NCBI GenBank assembly: GCA_946404685.1
Contig: CAMJEK010000004.1
Coordinates: forward strand, 1-42,125
Length of the DNA stretch: 42,125 nucleotides
Direction: 5' to 3'
Source: an uncultured Candidatus Saccharibacteria bacterium
Lineage (GTDB): Bacteria; Patescibacteriota; Saccharimonadia; Saccharimonadales; Saccharimonadaceae
Below, in pieces: positions 3,299 through 20,389 of the stretch; within the stretch, counting starts at the first letter, position 1, and every line of letters starts with the position of its first letter. The notes beneath the pieces were generated by a model that saw only the letters and a list, made by a program, of their open reading frames with translations, made no database searches and was not told the DNA's origin. A program made the position numbers and the translations under genes.

Positions 3299-3568
3299 AT
3301 GGCTAAGAAATCTGCAGTCCTCCGCGACGAAAAACGCCGCAAAATGTACGAAAAATACGCTGCAAAGCGTGCTGAGCTAAAAGCTGCTGGTGATCAAGAA
3401 GGTCTCCAGAAGCTCCCAAAGAACAGCTCAATCACTCGTCTCAAAAACCGTGACCTCCTCGATGGTCGTCCACGTGGTTATATGCGCCGCTTCGGTATGA
3501 GCCGTATTACCTTCCGTGAAAAAGCAAGCAAGGGTGAAATCCCTGGTGTAACAAAGAGTAGCTGGTAG
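3299..3568 (+). CDS. rpsN: 30S ribosomal protein S14, cysteine-free type
   Basis: [13 protein letters not shown]...[37 protein letters not shown] at 3299. Confidence 0.96.
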
Positions 3569-3583
3569 GAGAAAGGAAAAGAT

Positions 3584-3985
3584 ATGTCATTACAATCAAC
3601 AGATCAAATCGCTGACCTCATCACCCGCATTCGTAACGCTGATATGGTTGGCAAAAAAGAAATCCGTGTCGCTACCTCTAAGCTAAAAGTTGCCGTTATT
3701 GACACCCTCGTCAAAAATGGATACATCAAGAGCTACGATATCGAAGAAGGTAAGCCACGTGGTATCCTTCACGTTGTGATTGCTGACGCTGGTGAGGCTT
3801 CTCGTATCAACGAGATCGAAAAAGTTTCTAAGCCAGGCCGCCGTGTCTATACTGCTGCCGAAGATATCCCAACCATCAAATCTGGTCGTGGTATCGTCAT
3901 CATCTCAACCTCCAAAGGTTTGATGACCGGCAAAGAAGCCAAGAAGAATCGTCTTGGTGGCGAAATCCTCGTCAAAGTTTGGTAA
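3584..3985 (+). CDS. rpsH: 30S ribosomal protein S8
   Basis: DQIADLITRIRNA...GRGIVIISTSKGLMTGKEAKKNRLGGEILVKVW. Confidence 0.98.
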   Translation: MSLQSTDQIADLITRIRNADMVGKKEIRVATSKLKVAVIDTLVKNGYIKSYDIEEGKPRGILHVVIADAGEASRINEIEKVSKPGRRVYTAAEDIPTIKSGRGIVIISTSKGLMTGKEAKKNRLGGEILVKVW

Positions 3986-4002
3986 AAGTTTGACCGCTTC
4001 AC

Positions 4003-4036
4003 AAAAAATATCTCCCCTCCGCGGGAGATATTTTTT
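4003..4036 (+). terminator. Intrinsic terminator after rpsH
   Basis: Perfect 14-bp arms AAAAAATATCTCCC / GGGAGATATTTTTT ending in a T tract. Confidence 0.9.
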
Positions 4037-4094
4037 GTGTCCTAGGAGCCTCGCTCCAACAGGGGTAAAACTTTACAAATTAGCATAAACGTGA

Positions 4095-4100
4095 TATAAT
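4095..4100 (+). promoter_or_regulatory. Extended -10 (TGaTATAAT) for the DUF167 gene
   Basis: GTGATATAAT, 11 nt before ATG 4112. Confidence 0.6.
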
Positions 4101-4111
4101 AAAAAGATAGC

Positions 4112-4330
4112 ATGAAAACAACCGTCATCGTAAAAACTGGCTCAAAGAAAGGACCTCTCGTGGAGCCTATTTCAGAGACTTCGCTAAGAGTTTATCTTCG
4201 CGAAAAACCACACGATGGCGAGGCCAACGCGGCCCTCATGAAACTCTTATCGGACTATTTGAATGTCCCAAAGACCTCCATCAAAATTGTGGCAGGCCAA
4301 AAATCTCACGTCAAAATTATTGAATATTAA
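4112..4330 (+). CDS. DUF167 / YggU family protein
   Basis: REKPHDGEANAALMKLLSDYLNVPKTSIKIVAGQKSHVKII is the family core. Confidence 0.85.
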   Translation: MKTTVIVKTGSKKGPLVEPISETSLRVYLREKPHDGEANAALMKLLSDYLNVPKTSIKIVAGQKSHVKIIEY

Positions 4331-4352
4331 TTAATTTTGGCACATTTTGTGC

Positions 4353-4381
4353 TTGTGCTTTTACTTCAAACCGCATATACT
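4353..4381 (+). promoter_or_regulatory. Possible promoter for the surface protein gene
   Basis: TTGTGC - 17 bp - TATACT. Confidence 0.4.
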
Positions 4382-4408
4382 TATATTTATAAGTGTAAGG
4401 AGTTAAAA

Positions 4409-7030
4409 GTGGAGGACTATAAGAGAAGGTTTCTCATTATGGCTTTTGCATCGATTGGTGTAATGGCTATTTTTGGTGCCGTTTATGGCATTATAAACAA
4501 CAATGACGCGGATCAAAAAGTTTCAGAAAGTTCCGTCGAAACAAAACCAAACAGAAATACAAGAATTTCAATTCCAAAAACCTCATCAGATGAAGAAGGC
4601 TCAGAAGATGAGGCTACGTCAACCACACTCCCATCCGATGAACAAATAGCAGCTTATGTAAACCAACATACTTATGATGGCGTCGCCCAGAACACTGGTG
4701 TTCCATCAAATACTGGTTCAAATTCTGGCACAGACGCCCCGGTGAATCCAACCAGCCCAGAGAATCCGACCAACCCGACAGAGCCAGAAACCCCAGCCGA
4801 GCCAGATCCAACTAATCCAGACGACCCAACCTACGGCGACTATATTCACGAAGGCGACGGAGTTGAACTTTCTGACGAAGTTGTCTATATGCAGAACTTC
4901 GAATACAGCCGCTTTGGCGAGATGGAATACGACACCGAATATGAAATTGTCGATGCTCGCGATGGTAAGACCTACACAATCAAAAAGGTTCAAATGAACC
5001 GACAAGACCATGTTGTCATGGTTGAAGACTTGCAGCTCGGCTCAACCGAGAAACCAATGGTTTTGACTCCAACCTACTCAAACGTCAAAGAAACCACCAT
5101 TCTTCCAAAGAGTTCTGACATTGCGGAGCTCGACGAAAACTCTAACGAACCAAACAATTCCATCAATATCGATGGCGACGCTTATCTCTACTCCCCAATC
5201 GCCGCACTTGCGGGCAAAGATGACTCCTCCAAATTGGAAGCCTATAATGCATACAACGGCGAAGTTTCAATTTGTCCAAAAGGCTGGCGCCTACCGGCCG
5301 TCATGGAAGACTATGTCTATAGAGGCTACGATACCGAAACCGATTTCTCAGAAGAGACCTATGCCGTAAGTAACGGCTATGGTGACGAAACGCATTATGC
5401 AACTTCAACTTGGCGTAGATTTGTCAATAATGACGCCGTCATCTATGCTCATGCAAGTGATGGCTTTCATGAACGCTCGGTGGCCGATCCTCAAAACGTC
5501 CATGTACGCTGTATCTTCGGCGCACCACTCTATGAACACGCAATCGTGACATACGATGGTAATGGCGGCACTCTTGAATTTGCCGGCAAAGAGGGAATGG
5601 ACAGGATCTCAGTCGGAGAATCTTATACAAAAGCATCCAATGATTACTGGGAAGCAATGTATCCATCACTCGCGGTCTACCATCAGATGCCATATCCAAA
5701 ATTTGAGGTTTCTAACTGGAGTGGCCCATCACCAACTCGCGAAGGTTATATCTTCTTTGGCTGGGCTCTAGATAAAAACGCCACCACGCCAGACTATACA
5801 GCCGATAGCTACATTGGATTTAACGAAGATATCACACTCTACGCCGTTTGGATCTCCGAGAATGACACTGTCACCATCACTAGGAATAGTAATGGCTACG
5901 TTGAACCTGTTGATTCAGAAACAATTTACGGCGGACGCGAAGTTGTTGAAATTAATCAGAATGACTTCACTAAGCTCGATGGCAACGTCTATATCGCCAA
6001 GATCAATGCGCACGGCGTATGTGAGTATAGCAACTCTACTGTCATGAGAATCAACTACAACCTTGCTGCTGGGGACAAGCTTTATATCTACAATACCTAT
6101 GAAGAAGCAGAGTGGTTCAGGGATGATGAAGTAGCAATCGACGCGAACGGTCTATATGTGGATACACTAACCGGTTCCGGAGTTATTAATCTTGATATAA
6201 ACACTGAGTCTTCAGTCGGTCTCATTCTCGTAAAGAGCGGCAATTCAACCTTGAATATCAAGGCAATTGGTAGCCGCTGCGAAATTGAACCAAGCAAACA
6301 TTGGTGGAACCAAGGTGGATTTGAATCTCAGGGTTATCGTCTACTGGGCTGGTCGACTGATCCGAATGCTACCGAACCAACGTATGGGACATGGCTATAC
6401 GACAACGACGATCTTCTTCCACTCGATTTCATCACTGAAAATACGACCCTCTATGCAATCTGGGAACAGCCAAATAGTGTAACTTTGAATGTCGCTCCAT
6501 CTAACTTCTCGGACGGCAGCACAACTAGAACCTTCAGATATTTCCCTTCAAGCGACGCTCATGCTGAAGTCTTCACGACAGACGACGATGAAGCAAAACG
6601 AGAAGTCCATTATCGCGGTGGACCAAACTATGCATTCGTCAAATTAACCGAAGAGCAGGAAGATGCTGGCGCAAGAGTCTGCGTAATTGAAGGTACTCTC
6701 CCAGATATTCCAATGGTGCGTGCCTGTTCTGGAGCCGCTATTGATACTGCTCGTGGTTCGACAAGCTCGGTCTTCAAAGATGATAAAATCTCAGTCTACG
6801 TAGATTTTGGCGATCTCCCAGCAGGTTCCGAGATTGAAGTCTATGTGAGTGGCGACATCGACTGGGTTGATGATGGCGACATGGAGTTCTCCCCTCAGGA
6901 TCAAGATTCATTCGTCGGCTGGTCAACTACCCCTAATACTGCCACGCCAGAATTCTTACCGAATGAATTACGATACTACATGATGTTCGGACCGAAAAAC
7001 TCAACTCTTTATGCAGCCTACGCTGAGTAA
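4409..7030 (+). CDS. Large membrane-anchored surface protein: N-terminal TM, Pro/Thr-rich linker, FISUMP-like region, InlB/Listeria-Bacteroides-type repeats
   Basis: GTG start 4409 after TAAGGAG is preferred over TTG 4337. TM FLIMAFASIGVMAIFGAVYGI; PTSPENPTNPTEPETPAEPDPTNPDDP linker; ICPKGWRLPAVMEDY; repeats VTYDGNGGTLEF...GYIFFGWALDKNATTPDYT...ITLYAVW, GYRLLGWSTDPNATEPTY...TTLYAIW, FVGWSTTPNTATPEF...STLYAAYAE. Confidence 0.85.
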   Translation: MEDYKRRFLIMAFASIGVMAIFGAVYGIINNNDADQKVSESSVETKPNRNTRISIPKTSSDEEGSEDEATSTTLPSDEQIAAYVNQHTYDGVAQNTGVPSNTGSNSGTDAPVNPTSPENPTNPTEPETPAEPDPTNPDDPTYGDYIHEGDGVELSDEVVYMQNFEYSRFGEMEYDTEYEIVDARDGKTYTIKKVQMNRQDHVVMVEDLQLGSTEKPMVLTPTYSNVKETTILPKSSDIAELDENSNEPNNSINIDGDAYLYSPIAALAGKDDSSKLEAYNAYNGEVSICPKGWRLPAVMEDYVYRGYDTETDFSEETYAVSNGYGDETHYATSTWRRFVNNDAVIYAHASDGFHERSVADPQNVHVRCIFGAPLYEHAIVTYDGNGGTLEFAGKEGMDRISVGESYTKASNDYWEAMYPSLAVYHQMPYPKFEVSNWSGPSPTREGYIFFGWALDKNATTPDYTADSYIGFNEDITLYAVWISENDTVTITRNSNGYVEPVDSETIYGGREVVEINQNDFTKLDGNVYIAKINAHGVCEYSNSTVMRINYNLAAGDKLYIYNTYEEAEWFRDDEVAIDANGLYVDTLTGSGVINLDINTESSVGLILVKSGNSTLNIKAIGSRCEIEPSKHWWNQGGFESQGYRLLGWSTDPNATEPTYGTWLYDNDDLLPLDFITENTTLYAIWEQPNSVTLNVAPSNFSDGSTTRTFRYFPSSDAHAEVFTTDDDEAKREVHYRGGPNYAFVKLTEEQEDAGARVCVIEGTLPDIPMVRACSGAAIDTARGSTSSVFKDDKISVYVDFGDLPAGSEIEVYVSGDIDWVDDGDMEFSPQDQDSFVGWSTTPNTATPEFLPNELRYYMMFGPKNSTLYAAYAE

Positions 7031-7054
7031 TAAAATCAAAAAATTCAGGCAAAG

Positions 7055-7083
7055 AAAATCCCGCGAAAAATGCGGGATTTTTC
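7055..7083 (+). terminator. Intrinsic terminator after the surface protein gene
   Basis: AAAATCCCGC-GAAAAAT-GCGGGATTTTT. Confidence 0.85.
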
Positions 7084-7106
7084 TTGTATTTTAAGGGGCG
7101 ATATGG

Positions 7107-7112
7107 TATAAT
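7107..7112 (+). promoter_or_regulatory. Extended -10 (TGgTATAAT) restarting the ribosomal operon at rplF
   Basis: ATATGGTATAAT, 28 nt before ATG 7141, with purine-rich AAGGGAA upstream of the ATG. Confidence 0.65.
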
Positions 7113-7140
7113 TATCAAGATATTAACAATAAGGGAAAAT

Positions 7141-7677
7141 ATGAGTCGTATCGGAAAACAACCTATCGATATTCCGGCAGGAGTGACAATTACGGTCGGC
7201 GACAAAGAGATTACTGTCGCAGGACCAAAAGGTTCACTCGTTGTCCCGGTTCAACCTCAGACCGAAACTAAGGTCGAAGGTACTCAAATCGTCGTCACTA
7301 GAAAAGATGACGAACCAAAATCTCGTGCTTGGCATGGCCTTCAGCGCGCATTGCTTAACAATGCCGTCCAAGGCGTTACCAAAGGTTTCGAGAAAAAACT
7401 AGAAATTAATGGTGTCGGCTTCCGTCTATCCGGCGGTGGAAAATCCATCGAAATGGCCCTCGGTTTTTCACATCCAGTGAAATATGAAGCTCCAGAAGGC
7501 GTCGAACTCACCACTAACAAAATGGAAATCACTGTCTCTGGCATCGACAAACAAAAAGTCGGCCAAGTTGCAGCTGAAATCCGTAGCCTCAAGAAACCAG
7601 AACCATACAAGGGTAAAGGTATCAAATATGTTGATGAAGTTATCATCCGTAAGGCTGGAAAGGCAGGAAAGAAGTAA
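7141..7677 (+). CDS. rplF: 50S ribosomal protein L6
   Basis: [15 protein letters not shown]...[28 protein letters not shown]; internal ATG of the track ORF. Confidence 0.97.
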
Positions 7678-8006
7678 TGAAAGCTGAATTTAGAGCTAAT
7701 CGTACTCGTGCGAAGATTCACGGTACTGCAGAACGCCCACGCCTAAGCGTGAATTTCTCAAATCTTCACATCACTGCCCAAATTATCGACGATGACAAAG
7801 GTGTTACCCTTGCTTACGCCACTACCGTTGGCCAAAAGCTCACTGGCACCAAAACTGAGAAAGCTGCTGAAATTGGCAAGCAAATTGCAGCAAAAGCCAA
7901 AAAAGCAAAAATCTCCAAAGTCGTCTTTGATCGTGGCTCAAAACTATATGCTGGTCGCATGTCCGCTCTTGCTGACGCTGCCCGCAAGGAAGGATTGGAA
8001 TTCTAA
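7677..8006 (+). CDS. rplR: 50S ribosomal protein L18
   Basis: [23 protein letters not shown]...[26 protein letters not shown]. Confidence 0.96.
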
Positions 8007-8629: not shown

Positions 8630-9093
8630 TGAAATACAATGATTTAGTCGTTGAGAGAAATTCTCGCCCAACCCGCAAGGGTCGTGGTATCTCCGCTGGC
8701 CAAGGTAAAACCGCTGGCCGTGGTACCAAAGGTCAAAAAGCCCGTACCGGTCATCGCAAAATGGCTGCCGGATTCATGGGTGGCCAACGTGCCATCATGC
8801 AAGCAATTCCAAAGCTCAAAGGCTTCAAGAGCTTGCACGCTAAGGCTGAAGTCGTTTACACCGATCGTTTGAATGATCTTAAGGGTAACGTCGACAACTT
8901 TGTCCTCGCAGATAAGAATCTTATCTCAACCCCATACACCAAAGTTAAGGTCATCACTCGTGGTGAACTCACCGCTAAGATCGACCTCGAAACTCAATTC
9001 GCTTCCAAAACTGCAATCGCTGCATTGAAAAATGCTGGTGGTAGCTTCAAAAAAGTTCCTACCCCAATGCGCCCAGCCAAGAAAGCTGAATAA
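8629..9093 (+). CDS. rplO: 50S ribosomal protein L15
   Basis: RKGRGISAGQGKTAGRGTKGQKARTGHRKMAAGFMGGQ; directly follows S5 with no L30. Confidence 0.96.
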   Translation: MKYNDLVVERNSRPTRKGRGISAGQGKTAGRGTKGQKARTGHRKMAAGFMGGQRAIMQAIPKLKGFKSLHAKAEVVYTDRLNDLKGNVDNFVLADKNLISTPYTKVKVITRGELTAKIDLETQFASKTAIAALKNAGGSFKKVPTPMRPAKKAE

Positions 9094-9099
9094 TTTAAG

Positions 9100-9130
9100 A
9101 AAAGATGGCCCCTTAAAAGGCCATCTTTTT
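9100..9130 (+). terminator. Intrinsic terminator after rplO
   Basis: AAAGATGGCC...GGCCATCTTTTT. Confidence 0.85.
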
Positions 9131-9178
9131 GTTGGGAAAATGTAGTATAATTGAGAGAATAAAAAGTGGAGAAAACCT

Positions 9179-9895
9179 ATGAATCAGGACGCGCTGAAAA
9201 CCAGCACTAAGCAAAGAATTATTATTGCCATCATTGCCATCGTGATGCTCGGCTCAATTATTGCCTCGTATGCCGCAATCGTTATTGCTGGCAATGGCTC
9301 ATCGAAGAAAACTGGCCAAACTGCTGAAAATGAACTCGTCGAAAAAGCCCAAAGAGAATACGACGCTGCCGCAAACGAAATCTATAGCAATCAAGATTAT
9401 TTCAATGAATTCGTTGCCATGAAAAACAATGTCGTTGCCTTCAACGAAGTTTCCGCAAACGAAAATGGACTTGTCGCAAAAGATTTGAAAGTTGGTTCCG
9501 GACGCGAACTTGCTGACGGCGACCTTAACTATGTTGCATTCTACATTGGATTCTGTGCTGACGAAAGCATTTTTGATTCGTCCCTCAACTCAACCACAAA
9601 TCCAACCGCATTCAAGAGCGGTCTTGATGTCGCTTCGATTGGCTCACTTATCGAGGGCTGGAACCTCGGTGTTGTCGGTATGAAGCTCGGCGGTATTCGT
9701 GAAGTAACAATCCCAGGCGAACTTGCCTATGGTGACGCTATGGAAATTTGTGGCGGCCGAAACAAGCCTCTCAAATTCATCATCATGGCCGTCGACCAAA
9801 CCGAAAAACTGAACCTTGCAAGAACCAAGCTTGAGTACGCTCAAATGGGAATCGACTACGACAATCTAAACGTCCAGTCCAGCGCCGAGGAATAA
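9179..9895 (+). CDS. Membrane-anchored FKBP-type peptidyl-prolyl isomerase-like protein
   Basis: N-terminal TM; FKBP pattern IFDSS...SLIEGWNLGVVGMKLGGIREVTIPGELAYG. Confidence 0.85.
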   Translation: MNQDALKTSTKQRIIIAIIAIVMLGSIIASYAAIVIAGNGSSKKTGQTAENELVEKAQREYDAAANEIYSNQDYFNEFVAMKNNVVAFNEVSANENGLVAKDLKVGSGRELADGDLNYVAFYIGFCADESIFDSSLNSTTNPTAFKSGLDVASIGSLIEGWNLGVVGMKLGGIREVTIPGELAYGDAMEICGGRNKPLKFIIMAVDQTEKLNLARTKLEYAQMGIDYDNLNVQSSAEE

Positions 9896-11238
9896 TGAAT
9901 AAGCAAACCTTCTTCTTTTACGATCTAGAAACATCCGGTCTCAGTCCGCGTGATGACCGCATTATGCAATTTGCTGGCCAGCGCACCGATCTCGATCTGA
10001 ACCCAATTGGCGAGCCAATCAACGTGCTTCTAAAAATCAACGACGACACGTTGCCGAGCCCAAGCGCCATCATGGTCACGAAAATTACTCCACAAAGTAC
10101 GCTTCGTGACGGTCTGACCGAAGCCGAATTTGCTAAATTTGTAACCGAAGAAGTTTTTACGCCAAATACTATCGCCGTTGGTTATAACACAGTCCGTTTT
10201 GATGATGAATTTATGCGTCATCTTTTCTGGCGCACGTTTTATGATCCATACGAATTCGAATGGAAAGATGGTCGCAGTCGTTGGGACCTCCTCGACGTCG
10301 TCCGCCTCACTCGTGCGCTTCGTCCGGAGGGAATTAATTGGCCAGTCACGGAAGATGGCAAGGCAACCAATCGTCTCGAACTTATCACAAAGCTTAATAA
10401 TATCTCTCACGAGCATGCCCATGATGCTGAAGCCGACGTTCAGGCTTCGATCGACGTTGCAAGATTGATTCGTGACAAGCAACCAGACCTTTTCAATTTT
10501 CTATTTAAGATTCGCGGCAAAAATGATGTTAAGAAAATCGTTAATCTAGAAAACAAGACTCCGTTTGTCTACGCCTGCGGTCGCTACTCGGCTGAACATG
10601 AAAAAACCACGGTCGCCTTCCCACTCACGGCCGGCCAAAATGGCAATGTCCTAGTCTTTGACCTTCGCTACAATCTTGAAGAAATTGACCCAGAAAAAAC
10701 CTATCCAATCGTCAAGGAGCTCTGTCTCAACAAATGTCCAGCTGTAGCGCCGCTCGGCGTTCTCGATAAGGCTGATGGCTGGAATAAAATTGGCTTGACC
10801 AAAGAAACAGTCGATGAGAATCTTAGAATCTTGCTAAAACACCCAGAGTTTGCCGAAAAAATGCGCGAAAGAGTCGAGAATCATCCGGAATATGCTCCGG
10901 CCATCGATCCAGAATCGGCGCTCTATGATGGCTTTTTGAATGACCGCGATCGCATTCGCTGTGAGGCGGTCCGAAATGCAAAAGAGAGTGAACTCGCCGA
11001 TTTTAATCCAGAGTTCGTTGATGAGCGTCTCCCAGAACTGCTCCTTCATTACAAAGCTAAAAACTTCCCACGCACTCTGACTGCTGATGAGGAAGAAAAG
11101 TGGCAAGCCTATCGTCATGCACGTCTCGAGCGTCAGGCGCCAAAATTCCTACTCGAACTCGAAAAAGTCACTGACGACTATTTGAAAGAAGAGCTAAAAC
11201 TCTACTACGAATCTCTAAACGACAGTGACTATTCATAA
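9895..11238 (+). CDS. sbcB: Exodeoxyribonuclease I (DEDD exonuclease)
   Basis: FFFYDLETSGLSPRDDRIMQFAGQRTDLDLNPIGEP; GYNTVRFDDEFMRHLFWRTFYDPYEFEW; HDAEADV. Confidence 0.92.
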   Translation: MNKQTFFFYDLETSGLSPRDDRIMQFAGQRTDLDLNPIGEPINVLLKINDDTLPSPSAIMVTKITPQSTLRDGLTEAEFAKFVTEEVFTPNTIAVGYNTVRFDDEFMRHLFWRTFYDPYEFEWKDGRSRWDLLDVVRLTRALRPEGINWPVTEDGKATNRLELITKLNNISHEHAHDAEADVQASIDVARLIRDKQPDLFNFLFKIRGKNDVKKIVNLENKTPFVYACGRYSAEHEKTTVAFPLTAGQNGNVLVFDLRYNLEEIDPEKTYPIVKELCLNKCPAVAPLGVLDKADGWNKIGLTKETVDENLRILLKHPEFAEKMRERVENHPEYAPAIDPESALYDGFLNDRDRIRCEAVRNAKESELADFNPEFVDERLPELLLHYKAKNFPRTLTADEEEKWQAYRHARLERQAPKFLLELEKVTDDYLKEELKLYYESLNDSDYS

Positions 11239-11274
11239 AACTTATGCTAAAATAGTCTAAAGAAAGGTGGGCAA

Positions 11275-12222
11275 ATGTCAAATAAAGTTATGATTGTTGG
11301 TACTGGCAATGTCGGCGCGTCAATCGCCTTTGCTATTTTGAACCAACGTACCGCCGTGAATGAGTTGGTTTTGACCGACATTATCGCAAAAGACGCTGAA
11401 GGTGAAGCGATGGATCTTTCGGATGCTCTCGCAGTTGCTCCGAGCTATCTCAAAATCAAGAACGGAACCTATAAAGACGCTAAGGATTGCGACATTGTTG
11501 TGATTGCCGCTGGCGCTCCGCAAAAAACAGGCGAAACGCGCCTCAATCTCTTGAAGAAAAACGCCAACATCTTAAAAGGCATGGTTGACCAAATTATGGA
11601 TTCTGGCTTTAAAGGTATCTTTATTGTCGTCACCAACCCAATGGATGTCATGTCTTATCTTGTCTGGAAATTCTCCGGCCTTCCGTCCGAAAAAGTCATC
11701 GGAACCGGAACAATCCTAGATTCCGCCCGTCTTCGCGAAAGACTCTCGGAATATCTAAACATTCATCCGAAATCTGTCCATGCCTACCAAATCGGCGAGC
11801 ATGGTGATTCTGAATTTGCTCTTTGGTCCGCCGCAACCGCTGGCGGCCAGAAAATCTCTACAATGCTAAAACCAGAGATTCTCGACGAAATCGAAGATTA
11901 TGTCAGAAACGAGGCCTACGCCATCATTAATCGCAAAGGCTCAACCCACTATGGCATCGGCGCTTGCGTAGTTCAGATTTTGAATTGCATCCTGAATGAT
12001 GAAAAACGTGTCCTTTCTGTTTCTCATTATCATGATTTTGATGACGTCTATTATGGTTGCCCAGCCGTTGTTGGCAAGAATGGAATTATTCGCTCGGTTG
12101 ACGTCGAAATGTCTGAAAACGAGGGAATCAAGCTAGCAAAAACAGTCGGCGTTTTGAAAAAAGCCATCAATAGCTTGAAAATCGAAGGCTGCCCTAAACT
12201 TGACCGTCCTAAGCATAAGTAG
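11275..12222 (+). CDS. ldh: L-lactate dehydrogenase
   Basis: VGTGNVGASIAFAIL; TNPMDVMSYLVWKFSGLPSEKVIGTGTILDSARLRERL; YQIGEHGDSEFALWSAA. Confidence 0.92.
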   Translation: MSNKVMIVGTGNVGASIAFAILNQRTAVNELVLTDIIAKDAEGEAMDLSDALAVAPSYLKIKNGTYKDAKDCDIVVIAAGAPQKTGETRLNLLKKNANILKGMVDQIMDSGFKGIFIVVTNPMDVMSYLVWKFSGLPSEKVIGTGTILDSARLRERLSEYLNIHPKSVHAYQIGEHGDSEFALWSAATAGGQKISTMLKPEILDEIEDYVRNEAYAIINRKGSTHYGIGACVVQILNCILNDEKRVLSVSHYHDFDDVYYGCPAVVGKNGIIRSVDVEMSENEGIKLAKTVGVLKKAINSLKIEGCPKLDRPKHK

Positions 12223-12269
12223 TAAAGTATTTAATAGTTATCGATAAAATATTAACCTAAAGGAACAAA

Positions 12270-13358
12270 ATGGATCCATTATTAAATAATACAACTCCAA
12301 AACCACCGGTCCCAGCACCAATGCCACCGACCGACAATATGCCAAACATCCCAGCTGCAGGCGCCGCTCCGGCCCCAGCCCCAGTAGCCCCAGCTCCAGT
12401 AGCCCCAGCCCCAGCTCCAGTCGCTGCCACTCCTAGCATGGAAGCCGCTCCAGCTCCAGTTATGTCAGTCGAAAATGCCTTTGTGGGCACTCAAGCTCCA
12501 TCCACGATTTCTATGGGTGCAACCGAGCCATTGACTCAACCGGATCCAATTCCAGAACCAGATCCAATCGAGGAGGCTTTGAAAGCTCCGATTCGTGCAG
12601 CTGATCCTGTGCCTGGCTCAATTGGTAGTGCGGTCTCTGTTCCTTCCGACACTCCAGCTGTTCCGGACAACATGATGCCACCAATGGCTGGCGCTTCTGT
12701 TCCAACTACGCCACTAAACAATGTTGCGTTCAATACTGAGCCAACCAAAATGACGGATCCAATGGCTAAAAAGCAACAAAAGAATCAAAAGTCTATCATT
12801 ATCATTGCGATTATTGGCGTTCTGCTTCTTGTCGGCGTTGGTGTTGCGATCCTTATCATGACCATGAATAATCAGAAGCCAGCAACTCCAGCTCCAGCCC
12901 CAATCCAGGTTATCGATAAGACTCCGGAATCAGGAACCACAGTCTGTACTTATGAAGGAACCGACGATGAGCTCGCTCTCTATGAAGGCGCAACCAGCTT
13001 CTCAAAAGAAGTCAGAATGAAATTTGATAACAAAGATATTTTGACCGAAATCAAATTCTCAACCACTGTTGGTTTTGATGATGTCGAATTTTCCGAAGCC
13101 ATCAAGACTAAACTCGACAATGATTACAAAGAAGAGTATGGATTCCTCGGCTTTGAAAAAGACCCATATACTACCGAAATCCTAACCAACGAAGACGAAA
13201 TTGTTCTTTCGTTTGGTACAGACGATGTAGATGAAATTGACGACAATAGCAAGGATCTTATGTCGCTCATCAATGACGAGGATGGTAATATCGATCTAAC
13301 ATACGAAACCATCACCGAAACCTATACCAATCTTGGTTTCACCTGCGAAGACAAATAA
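12270..13358 (+). CDS. Pro/Ala-rich single-pass membrane protein with a small C-terminal domain (YehR/DUF1307-like at low confidence)
   Basis: PAPAPVAPAPVAPAPAPVAATP; TM SIIIIAIIGVLLLVGVGVAILIMTM; domain bracketed by TTVCTYEG and GFTCEDK. Confidence 0.7.
   Translation: MDPLLNNTTPKPPVPAPMPPTDNMPNIPAAGAAPAPAPVAPAPVAPAPAPVAATPSMEAAPAPVMSVENAFVGTQAPSTISMGATEPLTQPDPIPEPDPIEEALKAPIRAADPVPGSIGSAVSVPSDTPAVPDNMMPPMAGASVPTTPLNNVAFNTEPTKMTDPMAKKQQKNQKSIIIIAIIGVLLLVGVGVAILIMTMNNQKPATPAPAPIQVIDKTPESGTTVCTYEGTDDELALYEGATSFSKEVRMKFDNKDILTEIKFSTTVGFDDVEFSEAIKTKLDNDYKEEYGFLGFEKDPYTTEILTNEDEIVLSFGTDDVDEIDDNSKDLMSLINDEDGNIDLTYETITETYTNLGFTCEDK
12368..12421 (+). repeat. Low-complexity CCAGCC/CCAGTAGCC coding repeat
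   Basis: CTCCGGCCCCAGCCCCAGTAGCCCCAGCTCCAGTAGCCCCAGCCCCAGCTCCAGT. Confidence 0.75.
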
Positions 13359-13361
13359 TTT

Positions 13362-13391
13362 AAAAGCCGGGCTGTGGGGAGCCCGGTTTTT
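13362..13391 (+). terminator. Intrinsic terminator
   Basis: CCGGGC-TGTGGGGA-GCCCGG followed by TTTTT. Confidence 0.8.
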
Positions 13392-13415
13392 GTTGCAAAA
13401 ACAGCTAAAAGATTG

Positions 13416-13421
13416 TAAAAT
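13416..13421 (+). promoter_or_regulatory. -10 element of metG, 6 nt before the ATG (leaderless)
   Basis: GATTGTAAAATTATTTTATG. Confidence 0.6.
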
Positions 13422-13427
13422 TATTTT

Positions 13428-14864
13428 ATGTCAAAGATATATCTAACAACGGCAATTCCATATGTAAACGGCGCTCCACATATTGGCCACGCTATGGACT
13501 ATATTATTGCCGATTCTTATTCTCGCTATCATAAACTACTTGGCGACGATGTTCGTTTCCAAGCTGGAACTGATGAGCATGGCAACAAAATCTATCGAAA
13601 AGCCGTGGAAAATAATCTTCCAGTCCAAGAATATGTAGACGGCAACGCCCAGAAGTTTAAAGACTTCATTAAAAAACTTGATGTTGAGTATACGGATTTT
13701 ATTCGCACTACCAACGAAGATCACATGCGTCGTTGTCAAAAGATTTGGGAAAAACTAAAGGATCACATTTACTCATCTCGCTACGAAGGCTGGTATTGTG
13801 CCGGTTGCGAAGGTTATGTCACTCAAACTGAATACGACGAAAACGGTGGCATCTGCCCAGATCATCAAAAGCCATACGAAAAACTTTCCGAAGAAAACTA
13901 TTATTTCCGCATTGCAGATTTTAAAGATATTATTCGCGAAAAAATCGAAAAAGACGAAGTCAAGATTTTGCCAGAATTCCGCAAGAGGGAAATGCTGAAA
14001 CTGCTCGAAGATTCTCCAGACGTTTCTTTCTCTCGCCCAACCTCTCAGCTCACCTGGGGTGTGCCAGTTCCTGGTGATGAATCTCAGGTTATGTATGTTT
14101 GGATTGATGCACTCTCAAACTACATCACTGTCCTCGGCTTCCCGGAAGAAGACATTTCCGAATGGTGGCCAGCCGCTGTCCAGTTTGTGGGGAAAGATAT
14201 TCTTCGCTTCCATTCTATTATTTGGCTCGCAATGCTTATTGGTCTAGATTTGCCACTGCCAAAGGTGATTTGTTCGCATGGTCACATTTTGGCGAACGGT
14301 CAAAAGATGTCTAAGTCGATCGGCAACGTGGTTGATCCAAACGAAGCTATCGAAAAATACGGCATCGATGCCTTCCGCTACTACTTCCTTCGCCACGTCG
14401 ACACCTTCACCGATGGTGACTTCACTTGGGAAAAATATGAAAGCGCCTACAAAACCGAATTAGCAAATGATCTTGGCAATCTTGTCCAGCGTCTTGCTAC
14501 TATGGTCCATAAGAATGGTGTGAAATATGAAATTTCCGACAAGGATTCTGCAGCCGAAATCCTGAAAGAAAATCCAGAATATAAGAGCATGATGGACGAC
14601 TTTGAATTCTCAAAGGCTTTCGACTACGCTTGGGAAAAAGTTCAAAACATCAACAAACGTATTGATGATGAGAAGCCATGGATGCTTGCAAAAGCAGGCG
14701 AAACCGAAAAACTAGAAAGTGTATTAAAATCACTTGTTCGCGACATGGTTGCAGCAAACACGCTTCTCATACCATTCCTTCCTTCGGCAACCGAAAAGAT
14801 TAAGGCTGTTTTCGAGGCAGAAGAAATTCTTCCACCAACTTCACCACTCTTTCCAAAGGACTAA
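13428..14864 (+). CDS. metG: Methionyl-tRNA synthetase
   Basis: YLTTAIPYVNGAPHIGHAMDYIIADSYSRY; KMSKSIGNVVDP; CAGCEGYVTQTEYDENGGICPDH. Confidence 0.97.
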   Translation: MSKIYLTTAIPYVNGAPHIGHAMDYIIADSYSRYHKLLGDDVRFQAGTDEHGNKIYRKAVENNLPVQEYVDGNAQKFKDFIKKLDVEYTDFIRTTNEDHMRRCQKIWEKLKDHIYSSRYEGWYCAGCEGYVTQTEYDENGGICPDHQKPYEKLSEENYYFRIADFKDIIREKIEKDEVKILPEFRKREMLKLLEDSPDVSFSRPTSQLTWGVPVPGDESQVMYVWIDALSNYITVLGFPEEDISEWWPAAVQFVGKDILRFHSIIWLAMLIGLDLPLPKVICSHGHILANGQKMSKSIGNVVDPNEAIEKYGIDAFRYYFLRHVDTFTDGDFTWEKYESAYKTELANDLGNLVQRLATMVHKNGVKYEISDKDSAAEILKENPEYKSMMDDFEFSKAFDYAWEKVQNINKRIDDEKPWMLAKAGETEKLESVLKSLVRDMVAANTLLIPFLPSATEKIKAVFEAEEILPPTSPLFPKD

Positions 14865-16163: not shown

Positions 16164-19100
16164 ATGGCTACCCCTGCTAGTGGTGTAAAACCTACTAATG
16201 CCTCACAGGCCATCAAGGGTTCAGAAAAAAGTTCAATGAGCCCTGAATTTTTGAGTGGAGACAAGAACAGTAAGCAGGATGCCGCCAAAAAGGGCTTAAG
16301 AAATCTCGAACAAGAAAGCGCCACCGGTGGATTTTATAATAATGGTGCCGGCGAAGATGCGGGCGACGTAGATACTAGCCGTTTCTCCGAAAACAACCCG
16401 GACTCTGGTTATACAAATGCCGTCTCCGGATATGATGATGACGAAGATGATGAAGAGGACGAGCCTTCTCGTGCCAGAAAAGGCCCACTCGTCGCGATTC
16501 TCGGCGCAATCTTGACGCTTGGTGCCGTCATGGGCGGCTCGCAAGCGATGCTTCCGTTCAGTCTTCTTGAGCAGCTAAAAAGTACGTATGATTCTATTTC
16601 GACATCGATGCAATCGCGTTCGAGAGTGTTCCTAAGAAAGCAATTGAACAACGGAAATTTGCAAGACCCGATCAAGAAGAAATATTTTGGCTTCATGAAA
16701 GGCTCCGGCGCAACTTTCTCACTATCTGACAAGCAGAGAGTCAAACTTGAAAGCGAGGGCATTCATACTGCGGACATTAAGGATGCCAACGGTAATACTA
16801 GGACTATCATGTTGTTTGATGATGGTTCCGGAAGCCTCAAGGTCGTCACTCCTGATGCGGCGCTCGCGGAGGATATCAGTGCCGGAAGGGTCACGGTCGG
16901 TGATGATATTATTTTTGACGGAATGCGCGTCGACACGAACGGCACGATGGATTTTGAAACCAAGTTTTCCGACTCTGCCGACTTTAGAAATGGCTACATC
17001 AAAAGCTCCCGCACTTGGCGCGGCGCCATCGGCGCGTGGTTTGATACGATGACTGTTAGATTTCTGCAGAGCAACAATTTGACGAGAAACCGGTTTAAGG
17101 ATTTTCAGGACCGCGTTAATGCTGAAGCTGAGGGGAATACTAGGGGACGGATCATTGCAGACATGATGCATACCGGAAAACAGGACGTGGATATGGAAAG
17201 CGGGGGAAGGGAGGTTAATGCTACTGCTGAAGGTAAGGATGCCAACGGGAATACCATCAGGACTGACGTGGAAGGGAGTGATGGTGGTACTTTGATCGGA
17301 AAATCTGATGGTTTTGATATAGCATTGGACAATAAAACAATACAAATATCGAATGTATCAGGTGTAGATTCGGTAAAGATGGATAATAGCGACGCTATTG
17401 GCAATTTTAAAACGATAGCTAATTCGTCAAAAGCTGAAGCAAAAGGCGGCAGCTCAGCTGCGAATATAGCCGTAAATAGTATCTGTGCAGTAACTGCATT
17501 TATTGGCACTGTCCAGGTGGCTATTGCTGCCCAGCAGGGCCTTCAGCTAGTGCAACTAGTAAGCAGCTACTTTGAAGCGATCGATAAAGTTAAGGCGGGG
17601 GATGGTATAGACTCCCCAATAAACGAAATGTCGACTTGGCTCACCCAGCCAGCTGATGTCATAGCCACTGAACGAGCTGATAATGCTTTAGAAGACTACG
17701 ACAACGACGGCTTCTATGAAACAAAAGATGTCGTGAAAAAGAGTGGAACAACAGCAATGCAATCCGAGGGGATAGCATATCTCTATGGCGGTGGAGCAAT
17801 AAACCCTAGTGATCCAAGCGTAGAAAACTTTAATATCGCCTCCAAAATTGAAGGTGTAATGAAGGGGATTGGTGCGGGTATGTCAACATTTGCGGCGTGC
17901 GCTGCGGCTAAAATGACTACGGCAATAATTGGTGCAATCTCGGATGTGGTAGAACTTTTTACATGTCTCATCCCGGGCGTTGGGTGGGCGAAATGTTTGT
18001 TTGATCTAGGGGCGAAATTTGTTGGAAGCGTAGGTTCTAGTATTGCTATTGCGACCGCTATATCATCAGCGGCAAAAGTGTTGGCTCCAATATTTATCTC
18101 TGCGTTCAAAAAAGATCTTTTGTCAGGGATAGCTGGTGAAGATTTGGGTAACGCACTAGTTTCTGGTTCAAACATCTTTATGTCGGCAAACGCCAGGAAT
18201 GGTGGGCAGGCTGTTGCCTCTCGTGATGCGTATATCGCATACAGAGTGGAGCAGGAAAAAGTCCTTGCCGAAAAAGCAAGATACGAAAGAGAGACGCTAA
18301 GTCCATTCGACGCATCATCTCCGAATACTTTTCTTGGAAGTCTCACGAACCAACTGATAAAGTTTAGCACTACTACGAGTGCCCCGGCGAATATTATTTC
18401 CTTTGCTGGGGGAATAGTGTCCAGTGCCTTCAAATCACTGCTTCCTACGGCATCGGCCATAGATATCTCGGAAGATATCATGACTGAGGAAGAGTTCGAA
18501 AATCTCTGCCCAACGCTCGCTTCGATTGGCGCAATCGGCGATGCTTATTGTAATCCATACGTCATAACAGACACTAGTACACTCGGAATGGATCCTGAAG
18601 ATGTGGTCGATAAAATAAAATCACAACTCATCGACAATGGTGAAGATGACCCTAACACGGGGAAGATTAAGAAGCATTCTAATCTTGCAAATTATATCTT
18701 ATATTGTGACGGAAGAAGCTCAACATTTGGCGTCGCAGACACAAACATTGCTCAGCACTTCGAAAAACTTACTTTAAACATCGATCCAAATACTGGAACA
18801 GCGATAGGGGATTACGCCGTTGATACTTTATCGAACTCGTTCAATGCGGCGGTTGGTGCAGTTCCTATCGTTGGAGACGCGGTAGATATTATTTCGAATG
18901 GTAATCAACTTTATAATATGGGATGGATATCCGGTGAATCCTGCGTTATCGACAATACCGCTGCCACGGCAATCGACGCAAGCATAAATTCAGAATTGAA
19001 GGATAAAATCGATGACCACGGTCGCTCAATAGACTGGGAAGAAGCAAAATACTACCAGCGATTCGTTGAAGATCAAAGACTTCTCGAAAGTATGGATAGC

Positions 19101-19418
19101 GACTATAAATCAGTCGTCTCAGTATTCCTGGATGAGTATTACGAAGAGAATCCACTAGATGATAGCTATGAGGGTATTTTGGCCAGGGCGTCGGGTCTAA
19201 GCAAGGAAACGATTGTCGCGATGCTAGACTACGTCAATTATCAAAACTATATAGCAAACTATGATCCTGGGACACGATATTCATTTGTGGATGTAGAGGG
19301 CGGTGATAGTGTTAGATATAACATCCAGGAAGAAGAGATGAGTATCCCGGCTCCATTCGTAGCGGTTATCAGAAATACTAATTATGGAATGATGAGGACC
19401 GCAAATATCACAGCATAA
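16164..19418 (+). CDS. Large (1084 aa) multi-pass membrane protein of unknown function
   Basis: Acidic N-terminal region, TM GPLVAILGAILTLGAVMGG, later hydrophobic blocks (SICAVTAFIGTVQVAIA; GSSIAIATAISSAAKVLAPIFISAF); -10 TATAAT 9 nt upstream. Confidence 0.8.
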   Translation: MATPASGVKPTNASQAIKGSEKSSMSPEFLSGDKNSKQDAAKKGLRNLEQESATGGFYNNGAGEDAGDVDTSRFSENNPDSGYTNAVSGYDDDEDDEEDEPSRARKGPLVAILGAILTLGAVMGGSQAMLPFSLLEQLKSTYDSISTSMQSRSRVFLRKQLNNGNLQDPIKKKYFGFMKGSGATFSLSDKQRVKLESEGIHTADIKDANGNTRTIMLFDDGSGSLKVVTPDAALAEDISAGRVTVGDDIIFDGMRVDTNGTMDFETKFSDSADFRNGYIKSSRTWRGAIGAWFDTMTVRFLQSNNLTRNRFKDFQDRVNAEAEGNTRGRIIADMMHTGKQDVDMESGGREVNATAEGKDANGNTIRTDVEGSDGGTLIGKSDGFDIALDNKTIQISNVSGVDSVKMDNSDAIGNFKTIANSSKAEAKGGSSAANIAVNSICAVTAFIGTVQVAIAAQQGLQLVQLVSSYFEAIDKVKAGDGIDSPINEMSTWLTQPADVIATERADNALEDYDNDGFYETKDVVKKSGTTAMQSEGIAYLYGGGAINPSDPSVENFNIASKIEGVMKGIGAGMSTFAACAAAKMTTAIIGAISDVVELFTCLIPGVGWAKCLFDLGAKFVGSVGSSIAIATAISSAAKVLAPIFISAFKKDLLSGIAGEDLGNALVSGSNIFMSANARNGGQAVASRDAYIAYRVEQEKVLAEKARYERETLSPFDASSPNTFLGSLTNQLIKFSTTTSAPANIISFAGGIVSSAFKSLLPTASAIDISEDIMTEEEFENLCPTLASIGAIGDAYCNPYVITDTSTLGMDPEDVVDKIKSQLIDNGEDDPNTGKIKKHSNLANYILYCDGRSSTFGVADTNIAQHFEKLTLNIDPNTGTAIGDYAVDTLSNSFNAAVGAVPIVGDAVDIISNGNQLYNMGWISGESCVIDNTAATAIDASINSELKDKIDDHGRSIDWEEAKYYQRFVEDQRLLESMDSDYKSVVSVFLDEYYEENPLDDSYEGILARASGLSKETIVAMLDYVNYQNYIANYDPGTRYSFVDVEGGDSVRYNIQEEEMSIPAPFVAVIRNTNYGMMRTANITA

Positions 19419-19462: not shown

Positions 19463-20389
19463 TTAATCCCAGTTTGAAAGACCATTCCAATCAAGAGCGT
19501 CGGATGCACTATATGCAAAGTGATCAAAAGCATCTATTTGAGACTCTATGTAATTGTGGTCACCGGTATTCCTGATTTCGCCGTCGAATTCAATATTTGC
19601 AGTTTGGCCAGAATTGTCACCGTGATACATGTATGATAGCTCACCCTCGTTTCCACTAACATTATCATGATACTGTATGCGGCTGTCATTTGGAGCAATG
19701 CTGATTGTTATGTAGCTTGTCACGTTATCTCCACCATCCATATATCTGAAAGAGAATCTACTTGTATTTTCCAAGTGCGCATATCCTAGAGCCGCAGCAT
19801 AATCATCCAAGTGGAACGTATCGCCCTCCCAGTAGTCATCGCGGTTGACCCTATTCTCATTTTCATTATCATCAATCACGTCGATATCTCCATCAACCCC
19901 ACCGCCAACAGTCTCGCCATTGCCGTGGTCAATAGTAACATTTCCATCGTCGTCGATGTCGACTGTGATGTTCCCGCCATTGTTGTTGTCGAATTCGTCG
20001 TCTAGGTCGATTTGATCATTTTGATCTTCGATATCGACGGAATTGCCAGGCTGGTTATTATTGTCATTAACTCTGCCGCAGTTTGCAAGCAGTGCAACTG
20101 TGCCGGCCATGGCGACAGCTGCAATCGCAGCGCGAGCAATATTCTTCTTGGAGCTAGCTGAGTTCTTAAGCTTCTCAGAGATCTTCTGGATCAAATTTTG
20201 TTTCGAGACTTCAGTTTCATCTTTGACTACGTCGCCAAATCTTTCTTGGTCATTAGGTGTACCAGCACGGAAACTTTCAAAAGCTTCATTCTCGTTAACG
20301 ACTGGCTCGACACTTTTAAGCTGATCGGCAGCGTCGCTCACCGACTCGTTATTTCTTTGGTCGCGTGGGAAAATTCCAAAATTCGTCAT
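19463..20389 (-). CDS. Membrane-anchored protein with Asp/Asn/Gly-rich linker and unknown C-terminal domain
   Basis: TM NIARAAIAAVAMAGTVALLANCG; linker DNNNQPGNSVDIEDQNDQIDLDDEFDNNNGGNITVDIDDDGN. Confidence 0.8.
   Translation of the reverse strand: MTNFGIFPRDQRNNESVSDAADQLKSVEPVVNENEAFESFRAGTPNDQERFGDVVKDETEVSKQNLIQKISEKLKNSASSKKNIARAAIAAVAMAGTVALLANCGRVNDNNNQPGNSVDIEDQNDQIDLDDEFDNNNGGNITVDIDDDGNVTIDHGNGETVGGGVDGDIDVIDDNENENRVNRDDYWEGDTFHLDDYAAALGYAHLENTSRFSFRYMDGGDNVTSYITISIAPNDSRIQYHDNVSGNEGELSYMYHGDNSGQTANIEFDGEIRNTGDHNYIESQIDAFDHFAYSASDALDWNGLSNWD

Follow-up and report, generated by a model that had tools for sequence, protein, structure and literature searches.

Few bacterial gene rows are as conserved as the S10-spc row of ribosomal protein genes, whose products serve as standard markers. 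The window, the whole 42,125-nucleotide stretch of DNA analysed here, is contig C4 of a 643-kb genome (89% complete) and carries rpsS-rplV-rpsC-rplP-rpsQ-rplN-rplX-rplE-rpsN-rpsH as an unbroken row upstream of a cassette (Table 1). After rpsH come a terminator, a DUF167 gene with its promoter, the gene for an 873-aa surface protein, a second terminator and an rplF promoter, followed by rplF-rplR-rpsE-rplO, such that every element placed between rpsH and rplF by the first-pass annotation was located. Its proposal that a surface cassette with its own signals divides the spc operon into two transcription units also holds at the level of sequence. The rplF promoter was unlisted by a consensus scan, with a -35 matching at only 3/6 positions, yet the site recurs genus-wide (see below). 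The spc row is broken again after rplO (window 9093-14864), where the usual secY is lacking and genes for an FKBP-type isomerase, an exonuclease-like protein, a lactate dehydrogenase-like protein, a 362-aa protein and metG are found. Further along lie genes for a 1084-aa protein with several hydrophobic stretches (16164-19418), possibly a membrane component of a secretion system, and on the minus strand an exported-looking 308-aa protein with a long Asp/Asn-rich linker (19463-20389).

Table 1. Features of the rpsH-rplF interval and its flanks (window coordinates).
Feature	Position	Strand	Evidence
rpsH (S8), left flank	3584..3985	+	PF00410 2.5e-39
Terminator after rpsH	4000..4039	+	17-bp perfect stem, -24.2 kcal/mol, z -9.0
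Promoter of DUF167 gene	4072..4100	+	TTTACA-17-TATAAT, 11/12; identical sequence in L062
DUF167 (YggU/TIGR00251) gene, 72 aa	4112..4330	+	PF02594 9.7e-18
Candidate surface-gene promoter, weak	4360..4387	+	TTTACT-16-TATATT, 9/12; alone not above chance
Surface protein gene, 873 aa	4409..7030	+	GTG start, AAGGAG upstream
N-terminal membrane anchor, residues 3-26	4415..4486	+	Hydrophobic stretch; helix 3-26 in otherwise unusable model
Pro-rich linker, about residues 107-145	4727..4843	+	Sequence
FISUMP-like region, residues 180-298 (ICPKGWRLP 288-296)	4946..5302	+	TIGR02145 1.3e-5, below cut-off
InlB/List-Bact repeat 1, residues 440-480	5726..5848	+	PF09479 1.6e-10, above cut-off
Repeat 2, about residues 637-692	6317..6484	+	Internal similarity, i-E 0.002
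Repeat 3, about residues 834-870	6908..7018	+	Motif only, i-E above 1
Surface-gene terminator	7054..7082	+	12 pairs, z -3.75
rplF promoter	7084..7112	+	TTGTAT-17-TATAAT, extended -10
rplF (L6), right flank	7141..7677	+	PF00347 7.4e-34

The DUF167 gene product scores above the curated cut-offs (64.5 against 30.9 bits, and 63.7 against 35 for TIGR00251). The gene is single copy and located elsewhere in most of the 105 genus genomes having DUF167 and is therefore a probable passenger, with a role as functional partner of the surface protein disfavoured on the same grounds. An identical gene order is present in L062, the assembly of a different species whose ribosomal proteins are nearly identical to those of the window, and in a second genome set the DUF167 and surface genes adjoin in G275, which from the match is probably the same genome as L062.

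The surface gene is present as first described, the length of 874 aa then assigned including the stop, and its product combines modules of unequal standing. The three InlB-type repeats originally proposed are upheld for the first, which scores 41.4 bits against a PF09479 cut-off of 27, with the second recognised by internal similarity and the third reduced to a motif. The FISUMP-like match around ICPKGWRLP is real but falls below the curated cut-offs (TIGR02145, 25.9 against 41.65 bits; PF09603, 14.2 against 33.9 bits). An acidic stretch precedes the Pro-rich linker, and a C-terminal LPxTG-like motif followed by a helix and basic tail is absent from both the window protein and its L062 counterpart. 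The predicted structure, based on three sequences, had a mean pLDDT of 31. A search for paralogues in the same genome returned a single weak match to the FISUMP region (28%, one internal stop, at G000:C20). Full-length relatives were confined to L062/G275 and, more distantly, L131/G268, with those of L062 and L131 both sitting at the rpsH-rplF junction, while about 16 genomes of the genus encode other proteins carrying the FISUMP and repeat modules. The window and L062 proteins are 93% identical with a dN/dS of 0.10, indicating purifying selection and so a working rather than a decayed product. Diversification by point mutation was rejected on the same ratio, and variety at the locus appears to arise by cassette replacement. 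The domain content of sister cassettes, the membrane anchoring and the adherence role suggested for LRR proteins of the oral G3 clade (PMC7739484) are in favour of a protein that would most likely bind a partner cell or gut matrix. FISUMP-type proteins are also encoded downstream of the second ribosomal half in six loci (L067:14739-16397, L068:13681-15456, L075:13525-15690, L084:11436-12824, L085:14236-15489 and L141:12593-14029), perhaps marking a second variable surface site.

The spacing between rpsH and rplF was measured from whole-genome family searches, with less than 150 bp scored as compact. In the genus that includes Ca. Nanosyncoccus alces (L095), made up of tiny gut bacteria with a probable life on other bacteria, 2/23 genomes in which a single contig carries both genes in order are compact and 21/23 have a gap of 0.5-29 kb, with the two genes of further genus genomes lying on different contigs or far apart. 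The spacing is compact in 37/75 genomes from other genera of the family, in 36/36 from other families of the order and in 18/18 from other orders of the class. The split arrangement is thus not universal, a point on which the first-pass annotation had called for this comparison, as all 54 genomes outside the family are compact. At 80 loci fetched with the window S8, which may span more than one genus, 13 adjacent ribosomal junctions were measured and only rpsH-rplF was opened, in 67 of 75 informative loci with a median gap of 2.7 kb in the closed ones; none of the other 12 junctions exceeded 271 bp. The two genes share a contig but stand in reverse order in G166 (a single contig) and G235, separated by about 132 kb and 72 kb, respectively.

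The rplF promoter, initially taken as a fresh addition, does exist but belongs to the locus rather than to the window cassette. A sigma-70-type promoter matching at least 9/12 positions, mostly about 57-62 nt before rplF, is present at 37/42 interrupted and 7/8 compact loci as against 5/76 control pieces (p 9e-20), with an extended -10 (TGTGNTATAAT-like) and a leader like GATATTAACAATAAGG widely common to these sites. No promoter was found at that place in 20/20 compact relatives from the order and class, nor in 18/20 compact relatives from other genera of the family. A terminator-like hairpin follows rpsH in 28/42 interrupted loci compared with 0/76 controls. Since the promoter accompanies interrupted and most compact loci alike, the split into two units is best regarded as a trait of the lineage, independent of the cassette. 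L141 is compact and lacks the rplF promoter, while its sister L137 has both cassette and promoter. The promoter may either have preceded the first cassette or persisted after cassette losses.

What fills the gap differs in almost every species, each being represented by a single genome in the collections compared. States assigned by simple rules on a 78-tip tree comprised 29 surface-protein, 9 polysaccharide cluster, 28 other and 8 compact, with 25 state changes of which the compact state alone accounts for at least six, and contents differ between the sister species L066/L067, L137/L141 and L123/L125. Surface and capsule genes occupy at least 38/66 classed interrupted loci, a minimum in that the rule missed more, with exported proteins of L067, L085 and L095 and PGA_cap capsule proteins of L063 and L064 being placed in the 'other' class. 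Among 44 surface-type proteins, Pfam domains included Cna_B (10), VWA_2 (9), SpaA (5) and Big_2 (5), with FctA (3), Flg_new (3), ricin-type lectins (2), a GBS104-like tip pilin domain and FISUMP being rarer. Many surface proteins of sister cassettes have a C-terminal PDTG/PETG-type motif followed by a helix and basic residues, and a sortase is encoded in 60/60 genus genomes, with two copies in that of the window. The cluster-type cassettes encode sugar transferases, glycosyltransferases, Wzz, CpsB/CapC, EpsG and flippases. The 'other' class makes up about 40% of classed interrupted loci and includes metabolic genes and chromosome rearrangements. One sub-clade carries an arginine deiminase set (OTC, ADI and a DcuC-type carrier) at the rpsH junction (L069:10079-14172; L132:9845-13887), which by gene sizes L109 may resemble. 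In L098, L118 and L122 rpsH is directly followed by leuS, RNase III and rpoB genes from about 8460, as it is by leuS in L091, where the contig ends after leuS; this joining is a chromosome rearrangement whose breakpoint falls at the rpsH junction, the window having its leuS/RNase III/rpoB row at 30-41 kb. Elsewhere in the family, outside the genus, the gap is mostly filled by ordinary genes.

When third-position identity was compared gene by gene in up to 2,760 pairs, strong outliers were confined to rpsH. The L124/L133 pair is 97% alike in rpsH against 63% in the upstream genes, and about 98% alike where the cassette starts, whereas in L066/L067 rpsH is 58% alike against 98% upstream and the cassettes are unrelated. 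In G116/G222 the cassettes are 91% alike over 5 kb, with rpsH DNA at 80%. Of the upstream ribosomal genes, rpsH also shows the greatest divergence between the window and L062 (dS 0.25 against 0.02-0.11). Two pairs suggest that cassettes could be exchanged by a double crossover, one end of which would fall in or near rpsH, and the outlier histories of this gene make it a probable recombination anchor. It is possible that the recombinant contigs are chimeric, above all L124, which stops 670 nt after rpsH, inside the cassette. The competence gene comEC is present in 38/40 genus genomes including that of the window, and natural transformation has been demonstrated in other Saccharibacteria (PMC10633639).

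Taken together, the rpsH-rplF interval is likely to be a hypervariable locus for surface genes in Ca. Nanosyncoccus and its close kin, framed by core genes, such that the cassette does split the spc operon as first described but is one of many states of the locus rather than a singular insertion. In an order of events that we infer, rplF would have acquired its own promoter with rpsH usually gaining a terminator, and the row would thereby have become two transcription units, the signals being visible in the DNA and their transcription predicted. Because promoter and terminator make two units, the gap could tolerate foreign genes without harm to ribosome supply. DNA taken up from related cells, by a route for which comEC is present, would then recombine through homology in the flanking ribosomal genes. 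In keeping with this, repeated replacement of surface cassettes (adhesin- or pilin-like proteins, lectins, FISUMP/InlB-repeat proteins and capsule clusters) is seen across species, the window state being one that would encode an N-terminally membrane-anchored protein displaying FISUMP-like and InlB-type modules. The size of the 'other' class, the ordinary genes in other genera and the few recombination pairs count against this reading. More tentatively, the gap could be a partner-choice locus at which swaps of whole cassettes, made by DNA uptake and by recombination in the ribosomal flanks, change which bacterial host can be attached to, a possibility we hold as doubtful.

The non-surface fillings, namely the arginine deiminase set, the leuS rearrangement and the ordinary genes of other genera, would be expected if the gap were simply permissive, with any gene drifting in once rplF had its promoter and surface genes being merely the most mobile, with no selection for their exchange; this is rather unlikely given the share of surface and capsule genes among the classed interrupted genus loci and the repeated refilling of the site with such genes. 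The single precise junction, sizes of up to 35 kb and species-specific content could also point to an integrative mobile element, or a phage-like island, that favours insertion between rpsH and rplF. That explanation is largely refuted and very improbable, in that DUF167 and the surface gene are the sole genes of the window cassette, with no integrase or transposase, no direct repeats flank it within 3550-7700, no gene is common to all cassettes and no recombinase occurs among the Pfam families listed, these being the top 25 for the two larger sets. The window had no matches in Rfam and tRNA scans, so no tRNA landing site is present there. One ordinary old insertion, its content unlinked to its place and the contents of relatives being separate curiosities, would fit a protein under purifying selection that is common to the nearest relative, but unless the contigs are wrong it is refuted by the spacing and tree data, the junction being open in nearly the whole genus and its 12 neighbours never, with sister species differing, and it retains scarcely any probability. 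Misassembly at the locus or bin mixing, the former raised by the first-pass annotation, is the least credible of all even though many genomes are bins with rpsH and rplF often on different contigs, since the window and L062 were assembled separately and concur, dozens of assemblies (that of Ca. N. alces among them) have closed cassettes whose signals are consistent, and all genomes outside the family are compact.

The reading as a hypervariable surface locus has parallels in known systems. The capsule locus of Streptococcus pneumoniae (dexB-aliA) and O-antigen loci have fixed core flanks around swappable polysaccharide genes, with flank recombination and natural competence. The rpsH-rplF locus is likewise core-flanked with swappable surface content, but its flanks are ribosomal, an essential operon is split, and its content spans single adhesin-like proteins, capsule clusters or nothing. 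A variable island of Streptococcus pyogenes, the FCT pilus region, encodes Cna_B, VWA and FctA-type (Spy0128) proteins anchored by sortase. Cna_B, VWA and FctA domains are shared with sister cassettes here, but the window's own cassette lacks them and sortases mostly lie elsewhere in the genomes. By analogy, the locus would work like capsule and pilus islands between core genes, differing in its place inside the spc operon. The window protein itself resembles List-Bact/InlB-repeat and FISUMP proteins in its above-threshold repeat and ICPKGWRLP region, but differs from them in its sub-threshold FISUMP match and in being anchored at the N-terminus rather than through a C-terminal sorting signal.

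Insertions elsewhere in the ribosomal gene cluster have been analysed, and the cases described resemble the present one in that genes were gained within a conserved ribosomal cluster (PMC8046335). In the parts of that paper available, the selected examples lie at operon boundaries (rpoBC-str, str-S10) or within the rplL-rsmC pair and involve a few metabolic genes, unlike the repeated refilling of one junction inside spc with surface genes, and the rpsH-rplF junction is not mentioned in those parts (PMC8046335). In clade T1_b of oral TM7, LRR proteins proposed to act in adherence are inserted at a conserved locus, and the oral G3 clade (T1) has no PilE/PilV and is enriched in LRR proteins (PMC7739484). 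These are group G3 relatives and, as here, extra surface-type proteins sit at a conserved locus, but that locus consists of cell-division genes with another protein family and no ribosomal flanks. No published description of the rpsH-rplF arrangement was found in the literature searched, which omitted most subscription papers. One of the most conserved gene rows, cut at a fixed point, here frames a fast-changing surface locus that looks like a socket for the exchange of surface molecules between species. Within L062-L141 the history of rpsH may be foreign, which could disturb concatenated ribosomal-protein trees of the group.
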